Shown here: positions 1,174-60,897 of the stretch, one piece after another | How positions within the stretch are numbered: the first letter of the stretch is position 1 | How the letters are laid out: every line of letters begins with the position of its first letter | NCBI GenBank assembly: GCA_019843655.1 | Contig: JACDQD010000103.1 | Location: 11,035,501-11,099,500, forward strand | DNA length: 64,000 nucleotides | Source of the DNA: Lethocerus indicus | Lineage: Eukaryota; Arthropoda; Insecta; Hemiptera; Belostomatidae | Reading direction: 5' to 3' | Made by a program: the position numbers and the translations under genes | Notes under the pieces: generated by a model | What the model was told of the DNA's origin: nothing | Seen by the model: only the letters and a program-made list of their open reading frames with translations | The model's database searches: none

Positions 1174-1225
<52 letters not shown>

Positions 1226-32708: not shown

Positions 32709-32777
32709 GATCACCTCTCTCCATCGAAAAGCACCAATATGTTAGCTCTTACCTGAAAAAATGGTAAAATATTAGTA
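32709..32777 (-). other. Recursive splice site (ratchet point) C with 38-nt cryptic exon
   Basis: On the minus strand a TACTAAT branch motif (32777-32771, branch A 32772) precedes a T-rich tract, CAG at 32755-32753, and directly GTAAGA at 32752-32747. The branch-to-AG distance is 19 nt. A weaker donor, GAG then GTGATC (32714-32709), lies 38 nt downstream and could close a cryptic exon at 32715-32752. That exon is not a multiple of three. Three hairpin-capable inverted repeats lie 190-750 bp away on the downstream side in the inferred transcript. This is the last of the three sites in the inferred direction, 16.8 kb after site B. Confidence 0.57.
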
Positions 32778-35092
32778 AGGAGTGTTTAAAATAAACATAC
32801 AAATTATATATTTGCCCGGAAACGATGTTAGAACTCATTACTGTTTGAGATACCACTCGTGATCATTTCAAATAGGGAACTGAAAAATCGCCAGAATCTC
32901 AACTGCTTTTACTAATTCTCCAGTGCACAATTCGTAAACAAACAACAATATTATTATATTAAACAATCAACATTCTACCTTTATACAGTATATTAAATAT
33001 TATTCGGTAAAGTAGACCATAAAAGTTTACCCACAATCTTCTCCAGCAGATCTAATTTAAGCTATTAAATGTGCATCACCTTAGGTCTGGCTTAAAGTAC
33101 ATAATTAAAGGTCAGTCCCTCACGGGTTTCAGAGAAAAGTGCCCCTTCACGACGGCCCGAAACCCAGAACTTCAGCAGTTAATCGAATTAACGCTCTGCA
33201 GCATCTCTGCAGCGGAGTGTTTTCACTGCCGGCCGCAGCGGTTTTATTCGGGCCGACAGCGCCCGAAAAACGCTAAATCTTACAACATTTTCTCCAGGTT
33301 TTCTCCCGAGGTCCCCCCCCCGGAATTGCGATTCGTTTTCCGAACTTTAAAATAAATTAAAGAAACATTTCTCATTTTCATTTTAATTGGGGCTGGACGG
33401 CCGAAGGAAACTTTCCTTCGGGGCGGACACCCGGAAAATTGAGGCCCCCCGGAGTTACTTAATCCTGATTAGGGGAGCACAGACGGAATACGCTATTATT
33501 AAAGAGTCGCGAACACTATGTGCGTTCAACTCCGAGGTACTCGTTAAAATTACAAAAATAACCTTGTTACCGTAACTCAGTTGAGGTGCCAAATATGAAG
33601 TTTAGTAATATCAAATAATATTGACATAATACCGCTGAGGCGCAACTACAAATCAATTCTGAACTCAATGACCTAAAGTTCCCAGGGATTATTTCGACCA
33701 TATCAGCCACTCTGAGAGGTAAATTGTTCTCCGCAATTACGGACAGAGTAATAAATTTCGCTAAAGTGGTTGTTGGCACTGGGCGCGAGGGGGAAAAAAG
33801 TGACAACAAACTGAATTACGTTCAACCGGGGAATGCCGTAATGTTAACAAATGGGTCGTCTGTGGACAGAAGCGGCGCCTAAAAGAATACAGAGGGCGGC
33901 TTTGATGTCCCAACTGAGGGCGGCACGACGAGGGAGAAGAAGAAGAACCGACGAAAAAGCACCGAAGGGTACGAAAAAAAGTATTAAAGCGAACGGGCGA
34001 TGAAAGGACAAATAGGAAAAAAAACTAAGAAGAAGGCCCAGGATTGTTCGCCGAATGAATGACCGCGCTTATAGGCATCCCACTCAAATAACATATTGGT
34101 TTCTGATCTAAGTGGCGCCCTCGCTAATTACGATACCGAGCGGACCCTTAAGGACATATATAACAAGGTTTAACTATATAACGCATAGCACTAATTAATG
34201 CTATTCAAAAATTGACGAGTTAAAAACAATTTAAAATCTAAATTAAAATAAAAAAATTGGACAACCGTGTAGCATTCCTGATGACTGTCAGTGTCAACAA
34301 CGAGGGTTCGGTTTGAAAGTTGTTATTAGTAGTAAGTGTTATTATACATACGGTATCCAAACAATATTCATTATGGCAAAACTCTCTGACATTATGGATA
34401 CAGTTACAGCGTAGTTTGTTTTCGTTAACACGACGTTATGATAAATTGTTTGCTTGTAGGGTGATTTCGCATGGGAGAGAATTAATTTAATACGAGGGGA
34501 ATAATTAGGGAAACATAGCAACAGGGATTAAAGCATGTTTGTTGGGAGGATGCCTAAATGAAATTAAAATATTACTAATTTTTAATTAATATTGGTTACA
34601 TAGTACCAAACGTTAACATGTACAGGAAATAAGTTGTTTTATTAGAGTAATCTCGATTTATTATAATGCAACATAATTAGATACATAAATTGGTCTCAAA
34701 ATGGAATTAAGAAGATTCCACTGAAAAATATCAGAACCAACGACTCGTAAGTACCGGGTACGATGATGAATTAAGTATCTATGAAACGACTTAATATATA
34801 TATTAATGTCGCTTTTCACATCGCTGCACAGCGTACATTCACACGGAAGCGCGTGTCCTGTCCATGAAATGAAGCAGATTATAATTTCATACACGGGTGG
34901 GAGGGGGAGGGTTTACGAATCGAAATTTCACAAAGTCCGATTTCGGGACGTGGGGCAAAGCCCAAAATCCCCGACTGAGGTGGCCCCGCCCCTGCCCCCA
35001 CCGGGCAACCCCTTCGTGTTATTCGGCCCGCACCGGACAGTATATGACGTCCCCAAGTAGGGAGGATTTACTGATGTCCGGCCGTTGAAATA
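32778..35092. other. Non-coding: GC island and purine tract
   Basis: A GC-rich island (33110-33500) has a nine-C run near 33314. Positions 33926-34036 are strongly purine-rich on the plus strand, with GAA triplets. The rest is AT-rich (34140-34830). No gene was recognised. Confidence 0.45.
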
Positions 35093-35116
35093 GGGGATGA
35101 TGGGGGGTGGGTGGGG
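35093..35116 (+). other. G-quadruplex motif
   Basis: Plus-strand G runs of 4, 6, 3 and 4 separated by loops of 5, 1 and 1 bases, in a GC-rich island (about 34880-35170). Confidence 0.68.
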
Positions 35117-37400
35117 TAGACGCCGGCCAGACGTCGCCAAATCGACTGGCGCCACCCCTATCCCTATACCACCACCGATGGAATAAATCATTTCGATTTA
35201 CGAACAAAAAATGGAATTCGAAATTTTTTATACACGCGGAAAAATCCATAAATGAAAGAGGGGCCAATAACATCCCACTCAATCACTGTTCGTTTCGGAT
35301 CAATTTCAACAGACATATCATAATATAACATTTGTTATTATTCAATTTTTTAGTCAAAACATCATTTAATAATTAAAATTTATAATTGAAGGAATCAATG
35401 AGATACGCTAATTATTGATTTACACACAAAATTCTGTATACATTTCATTATAAGGAATACATATCTGTTCCGCACATTCTACAGATGAAATGATCGAACT
35501 GAAAACCATGACGCAAGATAAGGAAAATAAAGAAAGAAAATGGTACAATTGGTGTGTATTTTTATCCTAAAAACAAATCATGTTTTTCATTCGCAAAAGC
35601 TTAAAAATAATTACCCCTCCACAGTACTCATTTGGTAAAGTACTCCTTTATTGGGAGTCAGGCCCTCGTCGCATTTCACAGCACGAGTACATGTCTGCGT
35701 CCGATACCGTTTTCCTATCTGGAAAAGGAGATAAAAGCTGGAAAAACGCTCGTGCGGAGTCCCCGTTTTAGGGCGTCTCCCCACTTGTCGAATTTACGAC
35801 CGTTTTGTCGTCGCTGAAAATCTGAGGGAAGTGGGACGGCGCCCAGACGGTCTGTCTCGCCACTTAGTGCGAATTACAAACAGTTTAATTCGATTACTGT
35901 TACTCAACTGTTTGATGCAATCAAATTAGAATTTAGAACTAAACTAATTGTTGACCTCTCAAATACGCCAGCGCCACTAGTGAAAATTTAACAGCAAATA
36001 TATCCAGAAAGTGTCGTTCCCTCTAAATAAATTGTTTCAAACAATTTCCATAACATTAGTATCCAAATCATTATTCGTGCTGGCGAAAAACCAAATCTGT
36101 AATACGATAGGAAGTGAGTGGTGACCAACGATCAATGATTTTATGGTCCTTGGGGAGTGTGTATCAATGAAGGAGTGTCTATGAAATTATAGACAAAAGG
36201 AAAATTTAATTTACTATGAATATATATTCATATCTTCAATATCTATTATACCGATTAGCTAATAATTAGTAGTGGTCAAGCCAAACAGAATACGTTAGGG
36301 CGAGGAAGGGACTAAAAACGAGTTTTATTCCGTTTCAAGGCGACACATTTCGTCAAATCTCATTTGAGATAGGGGTGTTAATCGGATGACTGGTGGAAAC
36401 CGGGTGCGGCATAAACATTCGACGCGGATTCCTATTTGGGACAGTGGAAAGCCTTAAAACCCCCGGGGCATTTATACGCCCGACATCTTTATACAGCGGA
36501 TTTACGACTGTTTCCGAGGGGAGGCTGGAGACGATTTCCCGGCAAACAATCCGCCGCGCACGGGGGATCTCTCCCGCTCCGCACCCCGCTTTCAAAATAA
36601 AGATATTGGCTGGCCCAGTGCCAACCGAGCCGAATATCGAATTAATCAGGGCCGGGGCCGGCAGCAGGCGCCGCCGCGTCGGCTTTTCCTCCCCGGGGAG
36701 AAAACACCGGAGAAAAACAGCGTTCGGAGCTGTTTTATTACAGTTTCCATTCCTTTTAATTTTCGATAGATAAAAAATCACATTGTTTGTATCACGACGG
36801 TAATACAAATTACTGCAGGAACTTTCTAAGCAAATATCCTGTTTTTCGAAGGAACGAATTGTGCCAGAGGGTTGGAACAAATTATATAACTGACCAGCAT
36901 TATTTAATCATTTATTCATACGGCAGCAAACGTAAAAATTATTTAACCGAACTTGAAACTTTATATTGTTTTCCATCTGGAAACCTGTCGTAAAGTACGA
37001 ACGGGGTTTGTTTGCGCTAAGGGCAGCTAGCACAGAGGGTCATTTGGCAAGCAATGTAGGCTGAAAGCAGAAAGGGAACGATTATATCCAAAACTCCACT
37101 TCCACCTTTTGCCACCCTAAAAACTTTCATCCCCTAATGGCTCGATTCATATTAATCCTTTACTGCCCTTCTGGCTTTTCCGAAATCGGTGCGGGCCAAG
37201 CTGATGACTGACGGCTGTAAAGGGACCTCTACATTCATCATTCTGGAGCTCGCCCTGCACCGTATTAATTAGGGCTTGTGACCATTGAAAAGGTGAATTA
37301 TAAAAGTAACGTAACGGGGAAGTAGTAAATTGAAACGGAAATTGTAATTTAGAAATTAAAGGACCGCGTAATTACTAAACATTTAATATCTTCCATTTAT
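35117..37400. other. Non-coding with GC island at 36.4-36.7 kb
   Basis: The GC-rich island at about 36390-36720 carries a 175-codon minus-strand frame and a 126-codon plus-strand frame over the same bases. Neither has recognisable domains, so I read them as stop-poor noise. Flanks are AT-rich with TAATTA-type cores. Confidence 0.45.
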
Positions 37401-40400
37401 ATTAATATGCCATTTAATTATGTCCAAATTATGAGAGGGATTTATCAGCACAGGAAGGTGGACGTTTAAATGCTTCATCATTAACGTAAAGTGTATTTAC
37501 AAATAGTTATATTATTTATATTTACATGTAGGTATTATAAAAGTACTCATTCAAATAAGAAAGAAGCGCACGAGACCGTATTTGGGGAGCTTTTCACAGT
37601 ATAGATTTATGACTAATGAAAATTTTACTTGTTAAGATAACAGATAATTATATAGAAAAGGTAAAGGTTCAGTTTCAAAATGTTTGCTCTTTATAATGTT
37701 GGATTGTTGTTTGAAAAACCAAGTTAAATTTTTGAATATTTTTATGAAAATTAAATCTACAATGTGTAATAAACTATTAGCCTTAGTAGACCAATAAAGT
37801 CGCCTCTTGGTTTTAACCTTCAATATCAGTGTCAGAATTCAAATATGCAAGAAATAAATCGGCGCGAAACTAACGTCACACGTCAGTCAGAAGGAATAAT
37901 CCCTTTGAGGATTAATCTGAAAGGCTCACAAATAGATTTAAGGGTATCTTGAAAAATTGTATTGGCCGACAAAATAAGATCGGGGGGACAAAAGTCGATC
38001 ACGTACCTGTTATTCGCCGGGGTCGAGAAAAACTGAAAATTCGCAAAACACACAAACACACTTGGCAAGTAAGGGAGTAGGAAAAACAGGAAAGCGAATT
38101 GGCGGCGGGGGGTAAGTCACGTGGAAAAGCAGTAAAGAAAGGAGTTCATAAATAAGACAACCTAGGCCCTACAGTAAAAGGGGAGCGGGTAACCATTGCT
38201 CCCATTCTTCACTTTACAGAATTTAGGAATATCCATACACAAACCCTCACATATATATACATATACTTATATTTATTTATTTAGATGTATTAATGAAAAT
38301 ATAATAATTAAATTTCTCTATCTACAGTTTTTTTATTAAGGCCTAAAGGGTTTTTAACCTTTCCTCCTGAGGCCCTCTCGGGTATTGTCTGCTTAAATAT
38401 GATACCACTCACACAAGATTGAATACTATAAATAACATTTTCGGGCAAATTAATTCTGGGAAAAACAGGAAAATGGGGCCAATATTATTTATGTAAGTGT
38501 TTGAAAATGTGAACACTTCAATTGCATTCATAGCTGCGGATGGTGATTACAATAAATTCAGGGAATTATCTTGACATTATATATCATATTATAGGTATAT
38601 ATCAGGCCAGAATGTGAAATAAGGTATGAAATTAAAGTAATAAGTTCTAGCGGAGTAAGTCATGGAAGCTCAAGGTAATATAGTTACAAAGTGCATTGGA
38701 GAGTAGTGGCAAATCTTGCTAGTCTATTTAAAATTCAATTCATACAATTTATGAAAGAAATTTTGAGCGGCCGGTTCCGGAATCCTTTAATTGATGGGTC
38801 CAATAAGTCGAAAAAGGGAAGGACTCCCCGCCCCTTGGGCGCGGTGTATTTTTCTCTTCGAAAGTATATTTTTCCATGATATATAGAAACCTAGTAAAAG
38901 GCGCCATCCGTCTTGGCGTGAGGATCAGTTGGCCCAGCCATTGTCCCCGGCACACGGCTTCATATATCACCAACTATAAAACATCCCCGCGGAGGTTTTT
39001 AGGACCTGGGGAAGACACTTGGGCCGTGGCGGGAGAAAAACAGGCGGCCAGGAAAAGGCCAAGTCATTTTTGGCGATTTCTTTCCTCAGTTTAATACTAA
39101 CAGTTTGACAAATAACGCGACGGGGCGGCGGGCCCCGTGCACAGTTGGAGCCGAGAAATATTTTTCGATTTCGCTTTCGGCCCTGATCATAAGTGGAGTC
39201 GCAGGCGCAGTTTTTCAATAACGGACTCTGCGGCACGGGACTAGGCCAACTGTAGCTCTTCCTCTTTTATCTCTTTATGTTAAAAGACAGTTCTATTGTT
39301 TTAACTAATAATTAAACTTCAATATCAGGATAAAAAATTGAAATTAAACAGAAACAATAATATTTTAGCGCTAAATTCTATTGTTAAGACTGGAGTTAAT
39401 GAGCTCCTCTCTTTTAATCAAATTTGCTATTGAAGAAAATTTCGCAACTGGGAACCGATTTCTTTACGCCGTTTCACTCCCACAAATACCATAAAGTATT
39501 ATATTTGAGATTATATTAATATTTTTAAATACAATAGGGCATTCATCGCGAGGAATATACGTATATATTCAACATAAATTTAACGAAACAGCCAAGTTTT
39601 TTTATTAGGTAGAAACAGTAATTATCGACTTCTATTAACAGGCGTGTCAATGTTTAGAAACCTAGGTGAACTGAGCCGCCGTTGAATATTTATTCTTGGG
39701 TCCCCTACGATTCGGAATAGTGCATATCCAGGGGGGCGAAAGCACTTGTGGGAGGGGCTGAAGACCGAAGGGTCGGAGCAGGGATGCTGGAAAAATTACG
39801 GAGAACAAGAACGGAAACGGCCGAGAGAAAGGGCCAACGGAAAAGTCTAATTTTGGGGGGTTGAGGGGAGCTGACGTCCGTAGGCCTCGGCCGTAAAACC
39901 CCGTCCCGCTTTTATAGCACCGACTGGGTAGTGCGCCGGGAAGACGTCCCCCCATAGATAAACAAATTTTATCCAGGGGTGCTGCTGATTCACATCCGCG
40001 AACAGTCCGAATTGCTAACGGGCCGTGACCGAGGGGGCTCGCTGCACGAGGATTTACAGGGCTTTCTGTTATCTCCAGACCTTAAAATCTAAGACGATCA
40101 AAGGGAAAAATATATAGGCGTAATAAAAAAATCATAACTTACCAGATCAAAAGCGCCAAAGGGAAACTTGGGAGAACAATTTTGCACTCTCCAATATTAT
40201 TCACGAAGAAAATGAACTAATCAAGCTTATAACGGACGCGTCTCATTTATACAGACACAAAGGACTGAACAGGTGGATGTAATAAATTTAACACTGTCAG
40301 TTAAAATGTTGTTGATACCTAATCTTCCTTAAAATGTTTCACAAAAAAAACCTTTTGTAAATATGTAATAACGAAAGGGACTTTGGTATTTACAAAAAGT

Positions 40401-41746
40401 TTTTAGTCTATCTCCAGTATATGAATATACCCGAATTCAAATTTACGAAACGAAAGCTTATCAAAAAAACAGGATAATGCAAACTCGAAATGCTATTTGG
40501 ACAATCCATTAATTTACAGAGAAAAGTGTACTTGGAACTTTTCCGAAGCTCCATTAACTGATACCCAAATATCAACAGATTATCGCCAGTAACACGAGAT
40601 GAGGTTGACAGGGATTGCAGGCCTGAAAAAAAGAGTAGGAAAAAGAGAAATAAAGGGCAATCAATTAAAAGTGGAACGGAAGAGGGAAACTTCAAACAGT
40701 AACAAATCGTATTTTTATTTGTGTATTTTTACCATTTCATTCTGCCTGAAAAATGACCACGCAAACATATCCTTCAATGAAACGTTAGCTATCCCAAGGG
40801 GTGCCGGTATTTAAAACTTCCTAATTGACGAATGGCTGTACTTTATTCATATAAATATAGATATATAAAATAAAATATCTCGAATAAAAAGTGAGACCTG
40901 GCTGTCAAGTCGTTTATTTTCATTAGGCATGTGTTGTTTGCGTAAGCCACAATATATATCCGTCAGGAAATATTAAAGTTTTGGAACGCATAAAGTGATT
41001 GGAATCCTATAATTCTCAATTTGAATTTTTATGACGATATCAATATGACGGGGAAAAAATTGAATCTATTACGTACACTATAATGAACTAGCAAGACACC
41101 TGATAACATAACATAACTAACATAAAATATGAGTCATTTGAATGTCGATCGATCTTGAGCGTAGCTAGAAATATACAGTGTTCAGCTGCTTTTAATTTGA
41201 GGATATCAATAATACGTTGAACTACAATTTTAATGAGTTAAAATTGCCGAGAATATATTTCTGTACTCGACAATATATAGTTAACAGCAACACAGAAGCT
41301 AGAGGGTTTTTTCAATCATTCCCACTACTCAAATTGTGTTGGACATCAGTTGTGTTGGACGCATATATATTTATATTCGAACGCGGTTTTGTTCTGTCTT
41401 AAGCTGTGTTATACCTGAAAGAGGACAACCGAATATAGAGGCGGGAGACGTTGGAGGAAATATTGTAATTTTTTTTCGGCGTGGAAGAGCGCGAAGGAGG
41501 CCCAGGGGGGACCCGGGGGACAAATAAATAGGGATCTGTCGGGTCTGACAACGTTAGTATGTCACCGGTGAATCATCCTGCCTGTCGCTTCCTCCCAGCG
41601 ACGGGGTCGGTAGGCTTTCACACGTTCAACTCCCAGCGAGGTCGCAAAAAAGAGACGAACTCGAAAGATATATCGCGTTTACGGGGCAAACAGAGAAAAA
41701 AAATTCAAATTCTAGTCAACATTGACGCCAACATCTGTTTAAAAAA
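37401..41746. other. Non-coding mosaic
   Basis: AT-rich stretches (37440-37870, 38220-38700, 39260-39660, 40090-40480 and 40810-41400) separate GC-rich islands at about 38760-39240 and 39690-40080. Minus-strand donors of good consensus (for example CTG-GTAAGT near 40137) have no paired acceptor. No gene was recognised. Confidence 0.45.
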
Positions 41747-41765
41747 AATGGATAACTTATCCATT
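41747..41765. repeat. Near-perfect palindrome: 9-bp arms, 1-base loop
   Basis: AATGGATAA-C-TTATCCATT. It is too tight to form an RNA hairpin loop but is suitable as a symmetric protein-binding site or DNA cruciform. Confidence 0.75.
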
Positions 41766-44700
41766 GGAATTTTATCCGCAGAATCTGTTTTTTTTTACTT
41801 GCTACGTCTCTCTATATTACCAACGGTCTGGTCCTGATGATGGCGAGAAGTCGATGCCAAACTGGCTTTGGATCACCAGACGAGTGGAAATAGAAATCGC
41901 ATGTAATAATGGGCGTTTCTTAAATGGAATAGGTTTAATCCAGCATAATTTTATGTAAAGAAACAATGCTATTAATAAAGCCGATTAAACCGAATAATTT
42001 AGAAGCATCAGTATTTATGTATTAAGTGTTTATGGGATCAGAAAATTACGTAAAGTTATAATATGACCTGTATACCAACATAGAAAGAAAAGCGAATCGT
42101 TTGCATTGAAAACATTATCGGGTTTGAACGCAAGTGCTAGTGTACCGGTTTAGGGACGTCCTTGGACGATAAGACTAAATTGATTCCAAATTAAATTCTA
42201 ACGTTGATTGGGGTCCCACCCTAGAAAGAGAATTAGAGGAGAGTTTTCGTTGTTGATAGAGGAAGTTTTTCAAAGAAAGGCGCCACTTCCCTTCGCCCAA
42301 CGGTCCATAATTAATAACGTCGAAAAGGTGGCGTGTCCGCCGCCCTCCCCAAAGCCACCATTATTGGCAAACTTTTCTAGTAATAGTCCTTCAGTTTTTT
42401 GTCCTCCACCCCGCTTTTTTTTCTATTCTCGACTGTTGTTTTGACCCTCAGACGTCCCCCCTCGTGGCATCAATAATGTCTGGAGAGTTGGGAATAGCGT
42501 CAATCCGAACTAATTAAAAAAGTCGATAAATATTACAAATTAAATTCAGGAATATTTCGCACGTGATGAACTCGTTCTAACCATTGAAATATGTTCAACT
42601 AAATATAAAAGTCAAAAGAATAATTTGTTATCTAAACACTTGGATGGTTCTATTTCTAGTATTCAGAGGTTTCTATATGCGAATTCACAACCGCATCCAA
42701 ATACTCAAAAAGTAATAATATAAATTGTTAACAATTATTGAAGCGCATTGAACGTTGTCAATATCAAATATTGTTGAACATCTTCTAACAGTAAGCCCCT
42801 TAGTGCCAAGGCAGATCCTTACATAGTACTTGCCTACACCCTCCCCCACCACGCTACTCTAATAAGCTTCCGCCGACCAAGTCCGATATTTCTTTTCTTA
42901 CCAGATGAAGCCCGGCCCAGGGAGGAGCTCTGCAGCTTGGAGCTTTCAGGCATTAGTAGATCAAAGTTTCTACAATCCCCGAGGTCGCAATTTCCTTTGG
43001 CTTCGCCTAATTAAATTATCAAAAAAAAAAAAATAATAAAAAGAGGCTCTCTTTTCTCTCCGTTAGCCGTGATTGTACAAAGGCTTCGTAATAATCTAGG
43101 GCCTAATAAAAGTGTATTTGGAAGCAAAATGTATTCAGAGATTTTACTGAAAGTAGGGCACGTACACATGCCGTCCCAGCAGCTCGTAGTTTTGGGAATT
43201 AAATGTGTGGAACGATACTTGCGTCTACTAGAATACTACTAGTTATTAGACTACAGTCAAACTACAAATCAAATTGTTATTTTGAAGCTCTTAATATTGG
43301 CATCTCAACGTTGTTCTTCCGAATGTAAGCAAATAAATTATAAAGATAAAAATTTCTGTGCGATTTTCTGTTTTATTAGGTTCTTTTATGCCCTTTTGAA
43401 TTCCAAAGAATTCCACTTCTTGGACACCTAAAACTGATTCTCGTAAATCGTAAATCTTAGCTCTAATATAATTATAATATAAATATATTTGAATTTATAT
43501 AAATAATTTTCATATGACTCTATAGGATACTTCACTTTTTTAGAATTAACGAGTTATATTTTACGGTTTTACATACATTTCAAGTTGCAATTGTTTCCCT
43601 TCCCAATTGAAAAACCAAAGAGTAAGGAGGGGGGCTCTGATCCGGGCCTAATCAGGTTGACAAGATCTGCCCTATACTTTTTTCAACATCGGATAATGGG
43701 GACTTACTAAAAGAGATTGTTTCCTCGACAATCATACTGGAATCGTTATTTGCTTTTCTGTCTCGTTAGACAAAGTCCTTTATCTAGGGGATCACCGTAC
43801 ATTCCACCTAACGAGGACGAAGGCTCACCACAACGAAAAATGAAAGCCAGTACATAATATATTTATGTGTATAATATACGTACATATAAATAAATAGATA
43901 GATACATAAGCCTATCGACCACGAGGCCAATTGACATTTGGAACAACACATAATAATATAAGAACAAAAATTTCAGAAAATTATAACCCCAAAACACATG
44001 CATTAACACTGATGATGTTGAAAAGGCGAATCGTTAAAACTAAACAGGCGAGTATAAAATCTAAGGACAACTGCAATTGAAGACGGAATTAATTGAACTT
44101 CCGTGTCAACAACATTAGGCGAACAACTGGGCTTGTTGTGGGCGGTCGGGTGGGCTACTATATAATTCGGTGATTTAATGCTTACAAAGAGAGTTCCTGT
44201 ACTAGTTCTAGTTCTAGCTAATACTGTCTAGTAATTCTGGTATTGGCACTAAACGTGATATTAATGATATATTAAATAACATTCAGATTATATATACTGC
44301 CACCACAGCCAGGCGCACAAAGACAAACACACGAGTGGTCGGGATCGGCCGACGAAATCTGTTTAACGCCAATTCAGTTCACAAAATTGATCATAAATAT
44401 AATAAGAGACTTATTCTTCCCCTTGCAAAATACAGCAGATGGTACTTGTCTGTCATTAAAAAAACTGTCAGGGTTTCCGAAATATCAGTCATCTCTATAA
44501 ATATGACAGAATCGAAAATGAATGCATCGGTGGCAGGGGGGGGCCATAAAGAATTTAGGTCCCACATACATCGCTGACGCGAAAAGTCTAAACTTAGGCC
44601 CTTTCCCCGAGGAGGGTTAAGCTACTACTAAGCTGTAACACAAAGTGATTGGCGAAGTTCCCCCAACCACCGTTGGCCTCCCTGAAAGGTGGAAGAGGAA

Positions 44701-46435: not shown

Positions 46436-46469
46436 TTTATATTTACTTAGTGGGAGATGCGCTAAATAC

Positions 46470-47464: not shown

Positions 47465-47480
47465 CATTTTTCGAAAAATG
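47465..47480. repeat. 16-bp perfect palindrome
   Basis: CATTTTTCGAAAAATG, perfect and AT-rich with a central TCGA. Confidence 0.75.
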
Positions 47481-48374
47481 AGTTGTTTATACTAGCTTTA
47501 TTACACCTCAGGGACTTCTCATGTCGTACCTGACGTCGATAGTACTCGTTTGCGGCGCAATAAATCGATGGGCGTATATTTTTTTTAACGGGCAATTTAT
47601 TATTCTCCCCATTTCTGATTCCTATTCTCCCGCCTCTACCCATCCCCGTGCCTGTCCCTGTGACAACCCCGCCCCCGCCCACTCCTCAATTGCCGGGGTA
47701 CGCACCCCGTCGCATTCACACGACCACCAACACCTATTCAGATTGTACAATGGGCCGAATACAAGGCATTGAAACCGGCGGAGGCCGGCCGGACAATACT
47801 GGACGCCGGGAAGCCCTAACTAATTATGTTAGGCACTGGGAGAGGCCCGGGTCGGACCCGGACCCGGCTGTGTGTGTGCCCACAGGATGCCCAATTGGCC
47901 GCTATAGATTCCCACGGCATCTCCGGTCACCATGTTGTACTGTATTTTTTGGCGAAATGAGTTTTTGATAGACGAAATATGATTTGGCAATATGTGTGCA
48001 TTGTTTGGAAATATTTTCCCGAAATAAAGTTAGATTCAATTTTAATATCATCGCACATTATGGGTTCGTATTTTCAGTTCACATATGGAACAGTCATACG
48101 ATGTGGTACTTCAGCGGAGTGTTGATGTCTAAATCGTTCTAGGGTGTTCACAGGAAAATTTATTAGAAATAGCTACAATATAGCGAGCTATAGAGCTTAG
48201 TTTCACTGTAAACTGTTTACATACGGCCGCTATATGGCATGTTTCAGTGCTAATGGCCATGTGCAGTTTTTTTTAGTTCATTCTATTTTCCTGGTGGCAT
48301 TTCTGAAAGTTTCGCTCTAGAATATGACTAGCCTTAGCGAGGCCTTAGTGCCGGTGTTTAGTGCAGGTCGCAAT

Positions 48375-48390
48375 ATGCAGCTAGCTGCAT
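48375..48390. repeat. 16-bp perfect palindrome
   Basis: ATGCAGCTAGCTGCAT, perfect. A further CTGCTGCA-like string follows within 15 bp, giving several ways to pair. Confidence 0.75.
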
Positions 48391-49091
48391 CCACAACTGC
48401 TGCACCCGAACGGGTTCCCCCACAACTCGGCGCATCCGCTTAAATTAGAATGCTCCCCTCGACTGCTATGCGGTTTTTATATAGCCTTGTCATCGCACTT
48501 TAGAAGGTTCAACATGACAATCTGCCTTGACTGTTTACTAATACAGAATAACTGATACAATGTCTCAATTCTTTCCGTACCAATAAAATAATTTTTTAAT
48601 ACATCAAGCTGTAATCGAAATGCTTTCTTCAACTTCCAGTCCTACACGAAGTATTTTTCATACAATTTGGATTATCAACAAATTCATCGATTTCCCTAGA
48701 TATGATACTTTTATATAAATTATTTTTAAGTATTCGTGGGTTTGCCAGCAAATAGTATGGCAGATGATAACAGGGTGTGATGCTAGTGATATTAGTAACG
48801 GGTTGCGGAAAAGTCGAAGCGGGCCTAGTGGAGAAGCAAGGGGTAGAGCTCGAGAAACCTCGGGGCTGACGATTTTCTTTAAATTTCTCGCTGGGCACAG
48901 AACAAATGAACTAAGAGGGGAGACGCGTTCGGCGCTGTGTAAGGAGCACCGTAAAGACGGCGGAAAATGAGCTGCCGATATCTGTTTCTGATGTTGTCTC
49001 GAGGGCCGACCGGCTCGTTACAGCCTCTATCGGCCCCTTCTCCGGTAATTGAAATGCTGAGCGCCGCCCTTATCACAGCCTGAAGAGGGAA

Positions 49092-49106
49092 AAGAAGAAG
49101 AAGAAG
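49092..49106. repeat. (AAG)n microsatellite
   Basis: About five AAG units within a longer plus-strand purine tract. Confidence 0.85.
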
Positions 49107-49451
49107 TTCGTTCATCGAAATGTCATTTTGCGAAAGATGTAATTTATACGTCGGCCACGATATCGGTTTCTTTTTTCGGCCCAGAAAAGAAGAATTGGGT
49201 TGATTTACAAGTTGTGTACAGTATCTAACTTATATATCTAACAATCCCCTCTACCAATTCTCCTAATAGTTTATGAAAGCCAATTCACAATCCACCAACG
49301 AAATCGACACCTATCAATAGGTATGTAATTCTACCTCTGGAAAATCTCCTTGTAAGATAAGTACGGGGGAGCCAACACCATCGAAAACATATTCCTATCT
49401 GGGAGCTAATAAAATTCGCCAAATTGTTATTGCACGCAAGACAACATAAAA

Positions 49452-49529
49452 ACTCACCAATTTTCTTGGCATTTCGACATTCTTCAAGTAAAATTTCCTC
49501 ACCTGAAAACAAGGAAAAGCGTGTTAGTA
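49452..49529 (-). other. Recursive splice site (ratchet point) B with 45-nt cryptic or alternative exon
   Basis: On the minus strand a perfect TACTAAC branch sequence (49529-49523, branch A 49524) is followed by a pyrimidine tract, CAG at 49505-49503, and immediately GTGAGG at 49502-49497. The branch-to-AG distance is 21 nt. A full GTGAGT donor lies at 49457-49452, so the downstream cryptic exon is 49458-49502, 45 nt. Unlike site A, this exon is open in two frames and its length is a multiple of three. One frame reads EEILLEECRNAKKI, the other VRKFYLKNVEMPRKL. It could therefore be an alternatively spliced microexon rather than, or as well as, a ratchet point. I do not recognise either peptide. 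Confidence 0.62.
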
Positions 49530-51402
49530 AAAAATAACTGTAATCACTGAGAAGTAAATGTTTGGAGCAGTTGTACTGAATGCCATTAAAATAGAATTTA
49601 ACTATAAATTAGCTATGTATTTAAAATATATAGGTGGATTTGAATTGAGTGAATCGCAAACTTCTGCAAAGATATTTATAGGAGTCTCAAATATACATTT
49701 AAAATATATTTAATCAGACAACTCCCCATAAACACTCTACACTATGTTGTTAGTTTTATTATTGCTTAACACATAATACAGTGAATTCATTTTCACAATA
49801 ATATATTCATTTTACGGGATTAGGATCCCGGCCTTGTAATACTATTGATAATATAAAAAGAAGGTAACAAGTGAATTAAAAACTTCCTTTTGGTAGGTGC
49901 GGTTTAATCAGCGACAATGGTCAGCCGAGGAGGTTTGGCGAGTAGTTAGTGTTCAGTGTTTCAGGCTGTATAAAATAAAGCTTCAATTACCAATTACTTT
50001 CCGTCCCGGTGGACAACATCTCCGGTGGCATCTCGCCTCCAATCTCACTAATTCAACGACACTATCTCAAGCAGAATCTTAGGGAGTTGAGAGAGACGGA
50101 AGAACTGCTGTATTCTCAACCTCAAGAGTTCTACCGAACCAAATTCGTTTTATAAATAGCCTATACAAAGAAACCGGAATATAAACGGACATATTGTTGC
50201 GAATTCCTTTGCTGATTGAATAAAAACATATATCGGTGATATACATGGGTACTATTAAATTCAAATGTATGGTTATGTTTATTATTGGACAATACAAGAA
50301 TAGTAAGAAATAAATAGTGCTAACCTAGAGTACAGCATTTGAAATATAAATTCAATAGTACCAAAGGACAATGTACAAGAGGTTGTAAAGACTGTCGTAA
50401 CATGATATAATCTTAATGGCGTCATGACTTGTACGAATTTGTCATTTACTTTCACTTGCCTACAAGAACAAAAGTTGCTTATTCTTGAATTTCAATATAA
50501 ATATTTCTATTCATTATTCATATCGTATTAATTCATCACAACCGCCATAGGACAGGTCCTACTGGATAGTTGGAAGGGCTGGTTTATTATTACCGACACT
50601 AATTATTATTGAAAAATATTTGGAACAGTATTGATATTAAATAAAATAAATTGAATTAAATATTAAAGGAATTTAGTATTAAATGCAGTAAAAATTCAGT
50701 ATCAAATAAGGTCAGAAAGAGTAAACATCCCTGTGTAATTTCGTAATAAGTCAAAAAAGAGAAGGTAAGAACATTGTACATTACATAATTCCACCATCCT
50801 ATTACAGGTCTGTAGATTTAAACACGGCAGATAACGAGATTTGGATTGCACAACATTATATAGAGGAACAGGGAAGGCGACGGTTTCGTGTGCCGCTATT
50901 ACGCCATACTATAAAACGAAATAAGAAAAATGAGAGGAAGAAACCGACTTTATGAAAGATTTCCAATTCAGTTTAAGGCTAAGAATTTGTAATTACTAAT
51001 TTCTTAGATATAACTGGTATTTGATCAAACAGAACTGATTACAAAATAAATCCACAGTTAAAAGGAAATGGTAAGTTCTTTAAAACAGAATTTTAAAATA
51101 GCCCTTTAGTACAGCTCCGGCTACTAAATACAGGTTTTAATTTGGATTAACCTTTTAAAACGCGACCTCCCCCTGCCCCCTCGTAGAAATCCAAATTTTA
51201 AGTGGGAGGTCGGAAAGGGCGTGACGTGCTTTCCAGATTATGAGAGAGAGCAGAGAGTCAACAGCCTGCCGGAAAAGACCTTAGGGACGTGGTCGGGGTA
51301 TGGTGAGGTGGGCCGGGGGATCAATCGCAACTTTTAATTGCATAACTTTCAAAACTTTCAACCTTCTTATTAAGGTAATCAACACGTTCCCGGCATTAGA
51401 GC
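49530..51402. other. AT-rich non-coding DNA
   Basis: Mostly AT-rich. A plus-strand acceptor-like string ends near 50810 (pyrimidine-rich, ending TTACAG), but no exon with a paired donor is apparent. No gene was recognised. Confidence 0.45.
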
Positions 51403-51422
51403 GGGACAGGGGGAGGGGGGGG
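51403..51422 (+). other. G-quadruplex motif
   Basis: G runs of 3, 5 and 8; the 8-G run can supply two triads, giving four triads with short loops. Confidence 0.5.
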
Positions 51423-54400
51423 AGACGGTGCCGAGAAGACGTACCCGAAACCGCCGCCCGACGACCGCTTCCAATATTGCGCGTCCCGCTGGGGAGGTCT
51501 CCCAACTTTCTACAGGGAAGTTTTAAAACTTCCCCCGCCCCCGGATATTTCCCGAAAGCCGGAAGGCAAATGTACATTCGGAAGTGGCTGGCCGAAAGTG
51601 GTTCGGCAGTAACAAGTTACGTGGAGGACGCAGAGCGTTCAGGATGATGTGAGGCGCAATGTCCTGAGACATGGATAGTCCCTCACTGATATGAGGGGAA
51701 ATACATGATCCACTCGTTATCTCTGCTTCATTCTATATACATTTCATACTGATACTGATATTCAAAATTTGGATAATTTCTAGAACTAATATTTTCAGCT
51801 ACAACAACCGATTTAATTATAATCAGTTGGCATTCGCAATTGATATCGTGTTAAGGTCCATAACCATGTCAATCTATAAATTCAGTTCATAATCGATATT
51901 TGTTATAATAAATGAGAAAGTAAATTCCCGGAATGACTACTCAATTACCTCACCCTATGAGTGACGTCCAAGTCTAAAAATATGGTTGCATCTTTCAGAA
52001 AAAAACACGTCTAAAGTGGACTAATCAATTAACTTAGATATTGTTCCGGACTTCACATTAATAGTCCGTGCTCGTAGGGTAAACAAATAATAAATACATT
52101 GTTGGCGACTAATTTACATCCGGTAGGGTGGGATTAAGCCTCGGCTGTAGGCCAATTAAGAACCCGATCACGTCTACCCCGTGCAGGTGTAAAGTCGGCA
52201 CAGGTGAAAAAGGAAACCCGGAAGGAAGAGAAAGGCCTAAGAACGAGCGGTTGACTCGTTATAATGGTATCACTTCCGGCCCGGATGTGGCCGCAGCTCG
52301 CACTACTGGCGTACACACACACACATACCCACGGCCCAGTTTTTATCTTCCGAGCACGTCATCCCACAGGAGGAGACCCCGGTTTCCTCTACCGGTCAAA
52401 ACTTAATTGGTTTCCTTCGTCGGGTTTCAACTCCAGTCTAGACCAGCTCTAAACAAGAATTTCAACGGTCCCCCGCCAGATTAATTCAGAGGGACAATCG
52501 GTGGTGACCGACAATTATATTTCGTGTATTATTTATTTCAGATATGAACGAAATTGTCCTAAATAGAATTGGAAAAAATAACGGACGCTATAATGCCGAC
52601 CCGTCATTAGAAAATTACGATCGTATACACTGCTGAATATTTCCATCTCTACGGTGTTTTGTTAGGAATATCACGACTAATGGGATCGTCTGTCACCATT
52701 CCCTTGTTTGGTCCTACGCTGGACAGGTTTTTCTTTATCGCCAATTTCAGTAGTTTTTCGCGAGCAATCCGAAAAATTACTTTTCTCCACATCATTTTTT
52801 TATTGTCCCTTTTTTAAAGATTTATATAAGGATTTATTTGTTAGTTATTTATTTATACAAGCTCTATTGAGTGTCCCGCGGTGAATTATTTTATATTGAA
52901 AGTCTGCATGGAATACAGCAATAAAATGTAATGTCTCCTTCTTGGCAATAAAGATTGAACAAGCAAATGTGTTATCCCTACAATAGTTGTCGAATGGAAG
53001 CGATTTGTATGCAGTACCTCCGCTTTGAACATTGAAAATGAATTGGTCGGATCACATTTCGCGTTTGAACTGTGCCATATATAAGACCGATCCGGGAACG
53101 CTATCGAATTCTCTTGTATTTCACCGGCTGGCGGAAGATTGGAAAACTCGCCAAGATTCGAAACATACAACGGGAGAAAAGGAAAGCACGGGAATCGGAC
53201 ACGCGAAGAGTGTTTGAACTGGGGTTGAATTTTGAAAGTGTTTGATCAATTTCAAACTCCGATGAAGGGTTCTCGGTTGTGATGGTTCAAAAATTGGGTC
53301 AAAACCACAGAACAATTGTACGATTTCAATGATGTACTACAAATTGTACTATCTGAAAATATTCAAAATAGAATTACGTAGACATCACATATTCCCACTG
53401 AATAAGGAAACTCTTAGCAGGTTTGTCAGATTTATACTTAAGTTCACTATGTAAATTTATTATTGTAAATTAATATCTTTATAGCCGTCCATCTAGCATT
53501 GAGAAACTAGAATTGTTTCAATACGATATATCTGCATTAGGAACAACATTTTGTGATATATTTAGGTTGAATAATATATGAGCCAAGTTCTGAGGTTAAT
53601 CACGGTGTTCTTTATTATACTAACGTTAAATTAAATTTAGACAGATACTCGGGAACTTTTATTCTCTCGATTAGAAACCACTGACATAGTTTGACCGGAG
53701 TGCAAACCAAGTTTACAAATTGAAGTCTTGTTGTTGCGGAAGGAATGCGACCGTCTCTTTGTCGATGCAACGGGGGCCCTCGGCAGAGTTACACCACAGG
53801 GGGGGGGGGTAAAGCGCAGTGAAGAAGAAAAAGAAGAACGTGACGAGGAGGAGAGACGAAGGAAAGGGCCCTTTTGAGGCGCCAAGGGCCGGAAAAGAAA
53901 CTGTAAGAGGACACACTGACGATGATAAAGGCTCAATGATCAAAGTGCTGAAACTCCTCCCTCTTTCGATTCGAACTCGGCGGAGAAATCCGTTGAAAGT
54001 GGGCCACGTCCAGTGAAAAACATTCGGTCAAAACAGTGGAGCATGTACACATTGCAAGTTAAGCCTTAGTACTTTGAAAAGGCTTGCTTAAAACATTTTA
54101 TGTAATGATGTATCAACTACTTCCGACAATAACCAAACTTAATTATAAAGAATTATACAAAGAAGAAATGTAATGTTTAAGGTATACGTTAAATAATCAT
54201 AAATGTAATGATGGCGCAAATGGGGTATTGAAAATAGCTATTAAAGTAAACAAAGAATTCTGACTCATTCAATAGTTGTCGTCACGGTCATTAACCATAT
54301 CGGACAGTTGCCGACAGAATAAGATACGCCATTAACAACTGCGAACGCGGATAAATAGGGAACGACACCGGCAGTTTATAGGCAGGCAGCCCACGGGCCC

Positions 54401-55675
54401 CGGCCTGTGTTCAATGGGCCGCTGAATGTTTGATCAATGCCGAGGAGGCATACGTGAAACCCGGCACAAAATATGGGGGCAATGAAGCCAACAATAATGC
54501 CAGCTCCGTCTCGCTTCCGAATTCTGGCCGGCTTTGGAGGCCAATTTTGGAACAAAAAGAAAGTTTCGTTTTGATCCCGCCGATTGATGGAATTAAACTC
54601 CGGGACATTATTGGATTCCCGGCGGCCTAATTTCACGACAGACCGAATTATTATGAAACATTCGTTATAGAAGTGTACGGCATGGCCGTAATATGTTTAA
54701 GTGCGGCTATACGTTTTCAGATAATCATATATAACAGTCCGAACTTCAACGTAGCGGTGGGGGAAGGGGGAGGGGACACTCGTTAACGTACTGTTATACA
54801 AATTAGGCCCGCAATGAAGTACATTACGTTAATTGGATCCAGTTAACTCGTCGGTGCCGATATCACGGCGTTACACCTCTAGAGTACAATCACAAGGATT
54901 AGTTTTTACTTATTTCGCTAAATCTGTTAGCTAACTTCATTGTGATAACTAATTCATATAACTCATATAATTCATATTCGAATACAAATTTGAAAAATTA
55001 TCATTTCGGCAAGGTTTTATCTACTTGACCGTAAAGTAGACCAATTTCGGCTTCTCTCCACCACCAGTATAAAGTACCACCGATTAAAAAATAACAGAAC
55101 TGATCAATATTGGCGGTATGACAGGGATAAATCCTCGTATCTCCGCCTCTCAATTCACGTTTCCTCCGCATCCATTAGCTGATTGCTAACAGAGAGGAGC
55201 GCTCGCTCGGCTCGTTCGTCGGGGGCTATCGGACACGCGAGGCACTGTCCAATGAGCGGGTCAATAAAAAATTGACAGCTCCCTGTCCGGCATATCAAGT
55301 GCGGTCTCCAAACTAGACGCAGACGTGTCTAGGGGAGGATGCGGCGGTGGTGGTGAAGAATGCAAGAGATGAGCTCGGCTATTATCCAGCCTCCATTGTC
55401 TCGGACCGACTTGAGCTCCGTACGGGATTAACAATTACAACGTATAATTAATTCTTTGTATTGCTGGAAGGCAAGAGTGGATATTGGCAATAAACTTGGA
55501 ACGAATAAGAAATCATATTCAGTATAATAACTGCATAAGAAGTTAAAAAGAGAAAAAATTGTGTTGTCGCCATACTGTTGGAATACATCGGAATATTTAA
55601 GGGGAAAGATGGATTACATATTTTTTTAAATATAATTTCCGGACTGAATTCGAGGGAGCTATTAGATTAAGGGGG
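51423..55675. other. Non-coding mosaic
   Basis: A six-unit AC microsatellite lies at 52313-52325. GC-rich islands are at 51170-51640, 52120-52400, 53740-53900, 54360-54640 and 55130-55430. A run of 11 G (53799-53809) precedes a purine tract (53818-53868). Frames over the tracts are K/R/E-rich by-products. No gene was recognised. Confidence 0.45.
52313..52325. repeat. (AC)n microsatellite
   Basis: Six and a half AC units within a GC-rich island. Confidence 0.8.
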
Positions 55676-55694
55676 ATGCTGTGGTACACAGCAT
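55676..55694. repeat. Hairpin: 8-bp arms ATGCTGTG/CACAGCAT
   Basis: Perfect 8-bp arms with a 3-base loop, about 60 bp before the open frame at 55758. Confidence 0.75.
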
Positions 55695-55757
55695 GAACAT
55701 GACTTTCGGTCTCGCAGACATAGGCTGTGGGGTGGAGGGGGCAGGGGGGAGGATTGA

Positions 55758-55997
55758 GGCAGTGTGCTCAATGAGGCGGCGGACGGGGCCACCGAGCGGT
55801 TAACGACCGGAACACTCCACTATAATAGTTTATCTTGTGAACAGTCCAGACGGACTATTGCCAAACGCAAACAGTCCGCCGTTGAGAAACTCAACGGACA
55901 GTACACGCCATACGAGCGACAATTGCTCATTAATGCAATCCATCGAATTATCGTCGAGTTAGCAAAATTAGCAAAAAAAAGGAACAGTTTTGGAAAG
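55758..55997 (+). other. Open frame ending at a good donor; unproven exon candidate
   Basis: An 80-codon open segment reads like a protein in places, with a basic, helix-prone C-terminal half (for example ERQLLINAIHRIIVELAKL). It ends at AAG-GTGAAT (55997/55998), a plausible 5' splice site. A possible but mediocre acceptor (pyrimidine-poor, ending CGCAG) lies near 55710, and an in-frame stop falls at 55755-55757, so exon inclusion from there would be interrupted. I do not recognise a family. A hairpin with arms CCGTTGAG/CTCAACGG sits inside it (55879-55897). Chance remains likely. Confidence 0.1.
55879..55897. repeat. Hairpin: 8-bp arms CCGTTGAG/CTCAACGG
   Basis: Perfect arms with a 3-base loop; the second tight hairpin within 220 bp. 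Confidence 0.75.
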
Positions 55998-58912
55998 GTG
56001 AATGTCATCCTCTATACTGGATGAAGGAGTCCACAATTGTTGATCATAGAGTTACTAATTTATCAAGTACTATTTGCATCACTATTTCTATAATTTATTA
56101 TCATCATTCTTATTGGCCGTACTAAAAGTTATTGATAGTCATTTAGTCATTGACTCAAAGTCACAGGCTAGTTTAATACTAGAGCGTTACATTTTATTTT
56201 ATAACATATTCTGGAGTATAAAGACACGAATGTATTAGCAGTTTGATAAAGTTTAAATTGATGGAGTTTTGAAGCGCGAATTTTATACTTCGTCCTCGAA
56301 AGGCATGTGAAGAGACATGTGAAACAACCGACTATTATTGCGGGCTAGGTTGTGACGCCCTTATTATGAAACGTCGGGGGTAAATTCAAGATTAATGCGA
56401 GACCTACCCCGCATAAGAGGAGTATTACTCCTTCTACCCTAGAGGAGCACTACTAGTTGAGCTCGGGGAGTCCAATGAGTGAGTACTAGGAATACAGCCC
56501 AAAACTTAAGCCCGTATATAACAAGCTCATTATGTCTCAACGCCGTCTCAGTCGCCGCTCAGTAGAAACTTAATAAGAAGCTTAGGGGAGGAGCCTACAC
56601 AGAAACATGAGTCTCCGAGTTTAATACAACAGTGATGAAACTGAAGAACGGGAGAACGAGAGTGAGCCCCTATTTAGAAGCGGCACTCGCAATCATACCG
56701 GACTGAAAGGGAAAGCCAATCTCGAATGGTGATAAAAAATATACCCTTGAGTATATTAAGGATATTGGAATTGTTGAAACGTTTTAACTGCATAGTGACA
56801 ATGCAAACAGGATGCCCTATCACCTAAACGTGATGAAGAAAGGCCGAAGCCTGTCTAAGTAGGATCGAATCAGCGAGTGGCGACATAGGAGTGATGATAT
56901 ATTCCTTAAGATATTACATGCAACTTAGCATATCATTCCTAACATCCAACAGATACAGTTCACTATGGCAATTGTTACATTCACCAGGAAAGAACGGCAT
57001 ATCAACAGGTATGGCTGATGACCCTGCTCTGTACTGCTTATAATGCAGAAAAAAAGGATCAACATTAATTGGGGGCCGGTATAGTGATTTAAATGCAATA
57101 CAAAATACCTTAAAATTCAAATTCTAGAGAATTGAAATAGAGAGAGAGAGAAAAAAGAGTTAAATAGAGAGAGAAGGGGGAAAATAAAATAGTAGAAAGC
57201 AAGAAGGCCCCATTACAGTGAAAGGAGCATAAGGCGGAATAAAACTTTATTCACAGGCAATCTTCGTGAAGAATTGTAAGCTCCTTAGTAAGAGCTGACT
57301 AGTAACAACAGTAAAATTACCCTCCCTCATCCAGTATTCAATAGAGAGTAGATTTGAACACCCATCGTATTGTATCAGAAGGCTTCTCATTGGGAACTAT
57401 GGAATCTTGAACTGAAAGTGGGGAAAAAGTTTAATTTTAATTAATCCCGCTTCAAATGCTCACAAACATGCGAAAATTCTAATTTTAATTTTATAAGAAT
57501 TTGCACTCCACAAGTAAAATTAAAGAAAGGATACAACAACAATATTTTATAACACAAGTTTTAATCAAGTTTTGCACTTGCTCCGCTTATTGCTCTCTGT
57601 TTTTGAGTTAGACTTAATTTAATTTGAAACAAATTAGAATTGAAAGAAAGTAATAATTATTATGGACTTGGAATAAGTTTTTGCAAACTTCAAATCAAAT
57701 CGTCAGATCAGTAAAAAGCAAATATATATTGAAATCTTATTGATTATGCCCAAGACATATTGTTATAGCTTAAAACTCGTGAAAAAGTAATTCATCCTGA
57801 ATTGTTGAGGCTATTGAAACGGTTGGTGGTCTTGGGCGGACTTGATAACACGTCATTGGCTACCCAGCTCTATCCTGGTGGTAGTATCACTAGAATTGTC
57901 ACTATGGTCCCGCGTTTTACCTTCTTAATTAGACGCGCGTTTTCATGTTTTTATCTTTGTATTACATTTGCACAGTTAATACAAGGCATATTTACGCGGC
58001 AATTGTTTGGAATGTCATGCATTAATCTCGCGATCTCCAAATCCACACTTGCTTATATTCAGTGGAAGTGACACTATATTTTTATGTTTCTATTTATTTG
58101 TTTGTTAACCTAAACAGGTCTACAATGTGAACATAGAGCCATCATATTCTAAGTGTTAATATTTAGAACAAATATTTTGTCATTCTGACAAAAAACCCCG
58201 AAACTCCGAAGCAGAACTTATTGCTTGAATGGAATCCTTTAAGTTGCCGAACTACGTTTTGGCGGGCACATTTTTCAAGGCACGAAGTTGGCACCGGGAT
58301 TTCTTCGAGGCTTCTAAAGCGACGCTAAGCCTCGGGCGTCACTACGCACCCGGCAGATGACGCATCTCGATGTCCCAACTACGCACAGAGATAAAGTGCC
58401 CGGCTTTAGCGCAAGCCTTATATCCAGGGGCTGGGGTAGGGAATGCCACCACCCTTAAACCCCTCACTTCACCCTCTGTCTTCATTCGAATCATCACTCG
58501 AGTCGCCAATTCCAATTTCAGCTACTATTAAGTCGGTATATGTATAGCACCGGTCTATAACATCTAGAAACTGGTTTAACGAACTTTTTTAATAAGAATC
58601 AGGAAAAAATAGATTCAAAATAACAACACTCGCACCTTTTTTTGGCTGCTACACCATAGTTGCTGGAATTAAGAATTGTTTAAGTCGATTTACTCTAACT
58701 GTACTCTTACTTATTGATTATGATATTGGAAGAAAATTTTGGAGTATTGGAAATTATTTTTACTGACTATAGAATTCACTAACTAGCCTATTAACTAATT
58801 TAAAACTGGCATCGTAGACATAAATGATATATCAAATAAATTATGTATGTCTATGTTTAACGTATTTAGTACAGAGGACATATTAAGTCAAAACCCTAAG
58901 CAGAATAACCGA
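55998..58912. other. Non-coding; two AG runs and an unusual mixed-composition stretch
   Basis: Positions 56340-56900 have even base use and little of the AT/GC alternation seen elsewhere, with short inverted repeats such as AGGAGTA-T-TACTCCT (near 56419). AG runs lie at 57139-57150 and 57166-57174. An open frame upstream of and through 57802-58071 reads smoothly for about 45 codons but has no family resemblance. A GC-rich island lies at 58240-58460. Confidence 0.4.
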
Positions 58913-59014
58913 CACGTGAGATGTGAGGAATGTATGTAACGTATTGTGATGTCATTTCAGTAATGAATAAATTAGATTTGGGTCAAATAACAACCACGTG
59001 CATAGCAACACGTG
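58913..59014. promoter_or_regulatory. Cluster of three CACGTG E-boxes
   Basis: CACGTG occurs at 58913-58918, 58995-59000 and 59009-59014. The last two are spaced eight bases apart (start-to-start 14 bp). Such clusters are bound by bHLH, including bHLH-PAS, dimers. The function here is inference only. Confidence 0.35.
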
Positions 59015-60817
59015 CGTCTGTATATATCCTTCATATATATTATGATAAAAACTTTTTTCGGGTAACCGATTTTATGTTCTAAATAATTTTGTGCAAGTAA
59101 AAGTTGGTGGGTGGCTATAAAAGCTGTAGGGGGTGGATGGTGGATATGCCGATAAGTTGTCCCCCGCCTCCGTCCCCCTTAAGATTTGGCAAGATTGATG
59201 ATTGAGCCACTTATGTAAAGCCGAAATTTACATAGTTGATGCCTAACCACAACTCAACCCCCGTGGCCAGCCCTAAGGAAGAAACGGTGGGGTTGCTCCT
59301 CCTGCAGCCCCCCTCCCACGAAGAAGATATTATCTGTCGTTCGTTACTACCATAAGTTGTTTCTGTTTCGTTCGGCAACGCTTTGAATCGCTTAAGGCAA
59401 GGAACAGGTCCTGTTTTATGCTTCAATTTAGAGAATTGGATAAACGATTGCAAAAAAAATATCGATATATAAGTAATTTTATATGAATGTTAACGCCATT
59501 AAATAATCACTGCGTATAACAGAATAGTTGTATGTTGTTTTCACTTTCTTGGGTTATGCCATTAAATGGCAATAATATACTGTTTTAACTGCCCCAATTC
59601 GCATTCTCGGTTAGATTATCAGAAATTTACATATTCCATTAGTGGGAAGACACCGCACTGAGACTCCCTGGAATTGAGTTTTTAAATTTTTCATGCGGAA
59701 ATATTGTTTTTAATTCAATCGTGTGTTCATTGGGCGGGTCCACAAAAGGGGTTGGAAAACTGTATTAAAACCGAAAAGTGAATATACAGGGAAGAGATAC
59801 TGGGTTTGTTGGCCCAATAAAAAGTGAGCTTATCCTCGAACGGCAAAAAACGTGTATTTCTCTCACCTAGTTCAGCCGACCGATTGTTAACTGTGTTTAT
59901 TTAACTAGAAACTTTCATCGCGGACAATTTTTTTTCGTCCCGGTGTTTATTACTTCCCCAGATTTAATTAAATTGGATGTAACGTTTGGACCCTTACGGT
60001 GGTTCCCTCCACCGAACTAAAAGCAGAATGGAATTTTCATTCGAAGGAAGGTACATGTTTTGAGTATGACCTGCAGTCGAGGCTTCCAGATTATCCAAAA
60101 TTGAATGAAAAAGAAAACAGAGTATGAGTATTATTTACATACATGTTCACTAGATAACACTCGAGATGTTACGATTTTAAATTAGAGCAGTGTAGTGATA
60201 TTCGTAAAAGGATGTTCCTAAGGTGAAATGCGTACTTTTCTTTCCATAAAATGCGCTTCTATTTCCAAACTTAACAGGTTTAATACATTTATGAAAAAGT
60301 AAATACAATAATTACCAGAAAATATTACTTTTCTGCTTCGAATTCTGAAGAATTATACAGATACATATTTTCGCTTTTGCCGCCACATCCCTTTATGGTT
60401 GAACTAAAATTACATGTGGCTTTTATTTTTTGTTACACGAAAGGTAAATTTTGTCGCTGACAATCTCTCCTCAGATTAAGGCAAAAATCCCGGGGGAGTA
60501 AGAGGAGAAAGAAAAAAAAATTAAAAGCAGATGGAAAGCGGGAGGGTGGAGGACTTCATCCCCAAATGGAATACATAATGGGCCGGGGAACGAGGAACGT
60601 TTAAGGACTTTAAAATTTTAATGCCTGACCAGAGCTGAGCCACTACTGCGAGAATGAGAGCTATCGCTTCCGTAACATTTCGCCCTAAGGGGAAAGTAAT
60701 CCGAAATTATCTCCAATTTTCCAATGTTGATATATTCTCACGCTTTCACACCCTTCAAATAATAGCGGTAAATATTTAGAATGCAGAACATTTTAGACAA
60801 TGAAGAAATATATCTGA
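59015..60817. other. Non-coding; DRE-like palindrome and purine tract
   Basis: TATCGATA (DREF-type element) lies at 59460-59467. A GC-rich piece is at 59130-59330. Positions 60491-60554 are almost pure purine on the plus strand. No gene was recognised. Confidence 0.45.
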
Positions 60818-60897
60818 ACTTACCTTGAATATCTTGGGTATATGAATGTACAATCATGAAATCACGTTACTCACCTGAAACAAATAAAATGTATTAG
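60818..60897 (-). other. Recursive splice site (ratchet point) A with 51-nt cryptic exon
   Basis: On the minus strand the order is a CTAAT branch motif (branch A at 60894), a T-rich tract, CAG at 60877-60875, then GTGAGT at 60874-60869 with no exon between. The branch-to-AG distance is 19 nt. A second strong donor, GTAAGT, lies at 60823-60818, defining a 51-nt cryptic exon (60824-60874). That exon has a stop in all three frames, so its inclusion would be disruptive. This matches the Drosophila design in which a short downstream cryptic exon defines the ratchet point before the regenerated donor is used. It is the most upstream of the three in the inferred transcript, 11.4 kb before site B. 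It has the best donor consensus of the three. Confidence 0.62.

Follow-up and report, generated by a model that had tools for sequence, protein, structure and literature searches.

The window analysed here (the whole stretch of DNA, 64,000 nt in length) contains, on its minus strand, three sites at which a branch-point candidate, a pyrimidine-rich tract, CAG and GTRAG follow one another in a single fused arrangement. The sequence-only reading had placed this arrangement at 60874, 49502 and 32752, and at all three positions it is present. The component features are given below, with a slash marking the splice boundary and total scores ranked among the 301 AG/GT sites of both strands.

60893-60897, minus strand: site 1 branch-point candidate CTAAT, with its A at 60894
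60869-60893, minus strand: site 1 candidate ratchet point, pyrimidine-rich tract and CAG/GTGAGT, boundary 60875/60874, total score 16.8, second of 301
60824-60874, minus strand: site 1 candidate cryptic RS-exon of 51 nt, with a stop in each of the three frames
60818-60823, minus strand: site 1 second donor AAG/GTAAGT at +51, second-best donor 9-mer of 6771
49523-49527, minus strand: site 2 branch-point candidate CTAAC, with its A at 49524
49497-49523, minus strand: site 2 candidate ratchet point, pyrimidine tract and CAG/GTGAGG, boundary 49503/49502, total score 18.3, first of 301, its acceptor the best of 6596 AG
49458-49502, minus strand: site 2 candidate RS-exon of 45 nt, frame-preserving and open in two frames
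49452-49457, minus strand: site 2 second donor TTG/GTGAGT at +45, rank 28 of 6771
32771-32775, minus strand: site 3 branch-point candidate CTAAT, with its A at 32772
32747-32771, minus strand: site 3 candidate ratchet point, pyrimidine-rich tract and CAG/GTAAGA, boundary 32753/32752, total score 15.6, third of 301
32709-32752, minus strand: site 3 segment of 38 nt with a weak GTGATC at +38, for which a role as a good second donor is not supported
First base at 60877, 49505, 32755 and 30667, minus strand: CAGGTRAG octamers

The branch-point candidates (CTAAT, CTAAC and CTAAT at sites 1, 2 and 3) place the branch A 20, 22 and 20 nt from the first base after the AG, and pyrimidines fill 10, 11 and 10 of the 12 bases before the CAG. 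Across the whole 64-kb window the minus strand holds four copies of the CAGGTRAG octamer and the plus strand none, nor does any plus-strand AG/GT site score near the top three: the earlier observation that the plus strand holds nothing comparable is thus borne out. The fourth minus-strand octamer (30660-30667) was dropped and looks like a chance match: the 45 bases before it lack CTAAY, pyrimidines make up 4 of 12 bases, and its acceptor ranks 1613 of 6596.

All AG/GT sites on both strands were scored with acceptor, branch and donor matrices. These were drawn up after the sites were already known, and the scores are for that reason approximate; on this scale sites 2, 1 and 3 (18.3, 16.8 and 15.6) stand first, second and third. 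The fourth-best score, 8.6, is common to one plus-strand and one minus-strand site, which leaves a gap of 7 bits and no score between 8.6 and 15.6. Judged on acceptor and branch alone, the three sites rank 1, 7 and 14 among 6596 AG sites. Their fused donors (sites 1, 2 and 3) rank 1, 8 and 6 of 6771 GT with the CAG counted as exon bases, which in a real second step the upstream exon would supply; on the intron bases alone they score 5.2, 3.0 and 3.2. By rank, both acceptor and donor are near consensus at all three fused sites.

Acceptor quality and the GTRAG that follows it coincide more often than expected. GTRAG lies directly after the AG at 10 of the 6596 AG sites, and among the top 14 acceptors it follows three, every other pentamer class following one at most (P 9e-7 by the hypergeometric test; it was the third site that determined the cut at 14). 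Among the top 100 acceptors the low-complexity class TTYTT also reaches three.

It is conceivable that the three sites are chance matches without function, and sites of this quality do arise singly in simulation: with 600 minus strands simulated under each model, a score of at least 15.6 was reached by five sites in total (order 2) and by two (order 4). This amounts to an expectation of 0.008 and 0.003 per strand, against the three that occur on one strand of one 64-kb window; the other strand has none, and the scores between 8.6 and 15.6 are empty. Simulations of the plain pattern, which are independent of the scoring matrices, point the same way. The bare octamer had been expected once or twice per strand by chance, and the simulated means are somewhat lower, at 0.93 (order 1) and 0.48 (order 3) per minus strand in 120 simulations each. 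The full arrangement averages 0.008 (order 1) and 0.0 (order 3) per strand in the same number of simulations, in agreement with the claim that three on one strand are very unlikely by chance. In the reversed sequence the octamer occurs once on one strand and not on the other, and the full arrangement is absent. We consider a chance origin of the three sites scarcely credible. One further minus-strand candidate, AG/GTCAGT at 19614 (score 8.6), was dropped as background level, the best site of a simulated strand having an average score of 9.2-9.7.

The sequence-only reading had also assigned to each site a second potential donor 38-51 nt downstream. Such donors are found at site 1 (+51) and site 2 (+45), and the claim fails at site 3, where the GTGATC at +38 is weak. 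Of the top 300 acceptors, 0.3% have nearby a donor as good as the second donor of site 1. At site 3 no donor scoring above 2 exists within 150 nt, and the highest donor score 20-100 nt downstream is 1.9, a value matched or exceeded near 10% of the same acceptors. Support for a cryptic exon is good at site 1, fair at site 2 and lacking at site 3. Only site 2 joins a frame-preserving open segment to a usable second donor, the combination that characterises the Ubx m1 type; site 1 lacks it on account of its stops and site 3 for want of a good donor. The openness of the site 2 segment is weak evidence, because 86% of sampled 45-nt stretches of the minus strand have at least one open frame.

Acceptors and donors 20-500 nt apart were also scored as exon pairs. 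The 48 pairs are led by sites 1 and 2 (20.3 each), followed closely by 38455/38006 (19.7) and 40622/40142 (19.1), neither of which has an open frame. The lead of sites 1 and 2 over these background pairs is slight, and the cryptic-exon part of the reading consequently has less behind it than the fused motif. The minus-strand pair at 38006-38455, which lacks an open frame and combines an acceptor ranked 4 of 6596 with a CAG/GTACGT donor 449 nt further on, might be a non-coding exon or simply background. No conventional coding exon among the 48 pairs was convincing, a search which short exons without a Pfam domain would escape.

Identification of the host gene through the peptide encoded by the site 2 segment was dropped for lack of a match. 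In the PDB the best match (E 0.97) is an archaeal-type ribosomal protein and is not convincing; the peptide does not occur in the text of papers, and its pattern is absent from viral and prokaryote contigs, where an insect exon is not expected anyway.

The high ranks of the three acceptors, together with the open segment of site 2, would suit a different explanation: that the acceptors are real and that the 51- and 45-nt exons of sites 1 and 2 are ordinary alternative microexons, conventionally spliced, which begin with GTRAG fortuitously. Under this explanation site 3 would need a good second donor, which it lacks, and the site 1 segment has stops in all frames. Moreover, since GTRAG so seldom follows AG, it would take a coincidence for three exons to start with it. 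We therefore regard conventional microexons as improbable, and return to the ratchet points.

The surroundings of the sites carry a strand bias. On the minus strand T exceeds A in 55 of 64 1-kb bins and in 16 of 16 4-kb bins; G exceeds C in only 21 of the 64 and 3 of the 16. The counts are the same after masking of A/T runs. PMC10946897 reports the same direction, T>A and C>G, in the 5′ part of short introns in Drosophila. Extending as it does across positions 1-64000, the bias on the minus strand is a possible signal of transcription direction for unannotated long introns; replication can be an alternative source of such skew.

Coding content was assessed by a Pfam scan of 39 translated stretches. 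The 21 from the minus strand, covering the whole strand, contain no domain, and the 18 from the plus strand (1-55992) gave one sub-threshold match only, to POTRA_3, which was dropped (14.5 bits against a cut-off of 27). The longest stop-to-stop frame on the minus strand, 213 codons at 14088-14729, has no Pfam match and is probably non-coding. The window gave no Rfam match at the gathering score and no tRNA. Dispersed repeat families are absent: both families of direct repeats consist of simple AT and GA sequence, and of 38 inverted pairs the 25 listed are AT arrays. Arrays of (TA)n/(AT)n, of about 26 units, stand near both ends of the window (1169-1221 and 63949-64000), the second running off the end. 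The GC content is 40%, and the observed/expected ratio of CpG is 1.10, values that may point to an insect.

The skew and the absence of domains suggest that the minus strand is the sense strand and that the window lies within one intron. A minus strand without a coding domain, and a host gene that, if there is one, is outside the window, would also be compatible with splice sites that function in two or more minus-strand transcripts, or in some long non-coding RNA, and not in one giant protein-coding intron. The excess of T over A in every 4-kb bin, as from one long unit, argues against this arrangement, which we consider very improbable.

Spacing provides a further point of reference for a single giant intron. 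The segments between sites measure 11,372 nt (60874 to 49502) and 16,750 nt (49502 to 32752). At 11.4 and 16.8 kb they are close to the ∼9-15 kb typical of recursive segments in flies according to PMC6110457, where a high-confidence recursive site is reported in 63% of fly introns longer than 40 kb. From 32752 to 1 on the minus strand no comparable site exists, the best AG/GT being that at 19614, so that the last 32.7 kb exceeds the other two segments; this stretch to the window edge exceeds the expected length if the intron continues through it.

Taken together, the occurrence of the fused motif above chance, its restriction to one strand, the spacing of the sites, the skew and the lack of a Pfam domain in the scanned stretches support the original proposal: judged from its sequence, the minus strand very probably carries three recursive-splicing ratchet points within one giant intron.

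For transcription, use of the sites and the order of steps we infer the following course. An upstream exon beyond 64000 would be joined first to the acceptor at 60874. Joining there would restore a donor at the junction, which would then be spliced to 49502; the next step, from 49502 to 32752, would restore a donor once more, and a final step would connect 32752 to an acceptor or exon whose coordinates are lower. Removal of the intron would thus proceed stepwise in the 5′ to 3′ direction. With a second donor lying close by downstream, sites 1 and 2 may initially have their acceptor recognised within a short exon, and site 3 is predicted to be a pure zero-nucleotide point. Site 1 would present two strong donors, and its segment, because it has stops in all frames, is predicted to be left out if it falls within the reading frame. 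Site 2 is the predicted best candidate for an alternatively included RS-exon, because its segment keeps the frame and is open, and because its fused donor is the weakest of the three on intron bases alone. Inclusion of this exon may occur; the forecast is tentative, since in fly reporters inclusion is not well tied to donor strength. It is possible and rather doubtful that one giant intron, probably outside Drosophila, holds ratchet points of three different sorts in succession – one that has a pair of strong donors and a segment full of stops, then an expressed RS-exon of 45 nt that keeps the frame, and last a pure zero-nucleotide point – with stepwise removal and isoform choice coupled.

Recursive splicing in long fly introns is already established, and enrichment of RP sites in the large introns of other insects is in print (PMC2773006). 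Our query of the literature on recursive splicing in insects, made without a species name, returned no report of ratchet points in this species or intron. Set beside the ratchet points of Drosophila, as described in PMC6110457 and PMC8605326, the three candidate sites share the fused pyrimidine-CAG/GTRAG motif, the presence of several sites on one strand at steps of ∼10 kb and, at two of them, a downstream segment of ∼50 nt with its own donor. They differ in that two of the three fused donors deviate at +6 (GTGAGG, GTAAGA) and in that site 3 is without a clear second donor.

In flies, according to PMC8605326, cryptic RS-exons have a length of ∼50 nt, with the fused donor usually winning; in reporters inclusion followed donor strength poorly, and the fused donor was the stronger one in all seven reporters of expressed RS-exons. 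The same source describes the Ubx microexons m1 and m2 as expressed RS-exons of 51 nt each within an intron of ∼73 kb. The sites described here resemble these in having a short, donor-starting segment inside a giant intron, that of site 2 being 45 nt, frame-preserving and open. Site 1, in contrast, has the length of 51 nt but stops in all frames, and the likeness is one of kind only: no sequence link to Ubx is claimed.

The motif class is also that found on the sense strand in bee, beetle and mosquito. For introns longer than 50 kb, Table 2 of the 2009 survey (PMC2773006) gives 0.484 RP sites per 100 kb of sense strand for bee, 0.807 for beetle, 1.029 for mosquito and 2.196 for fly; the survey also gives 0.540 for the large introns of sea urchin, and 0.000-0.122 for the complementary strand. 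The three sites in 64 kb correspond to 4.7 per 100 kb, which is higher but not directly comparable, because it was scored with our own matrices and not with the survey's 80% threshold.

If confirmed, the locus would represent a clear case of a recursive intron with three steps that can be recognised from raw sequence alone, and in genomes that lack annotation the fused motif could serve to flag giant introns and the strand from which they are transcribed. The differences between the three sites would, in addition, offer a natural test of skipping versus inclusion – a choice that in flies donor strength alone fails to explain (PMC8605326).
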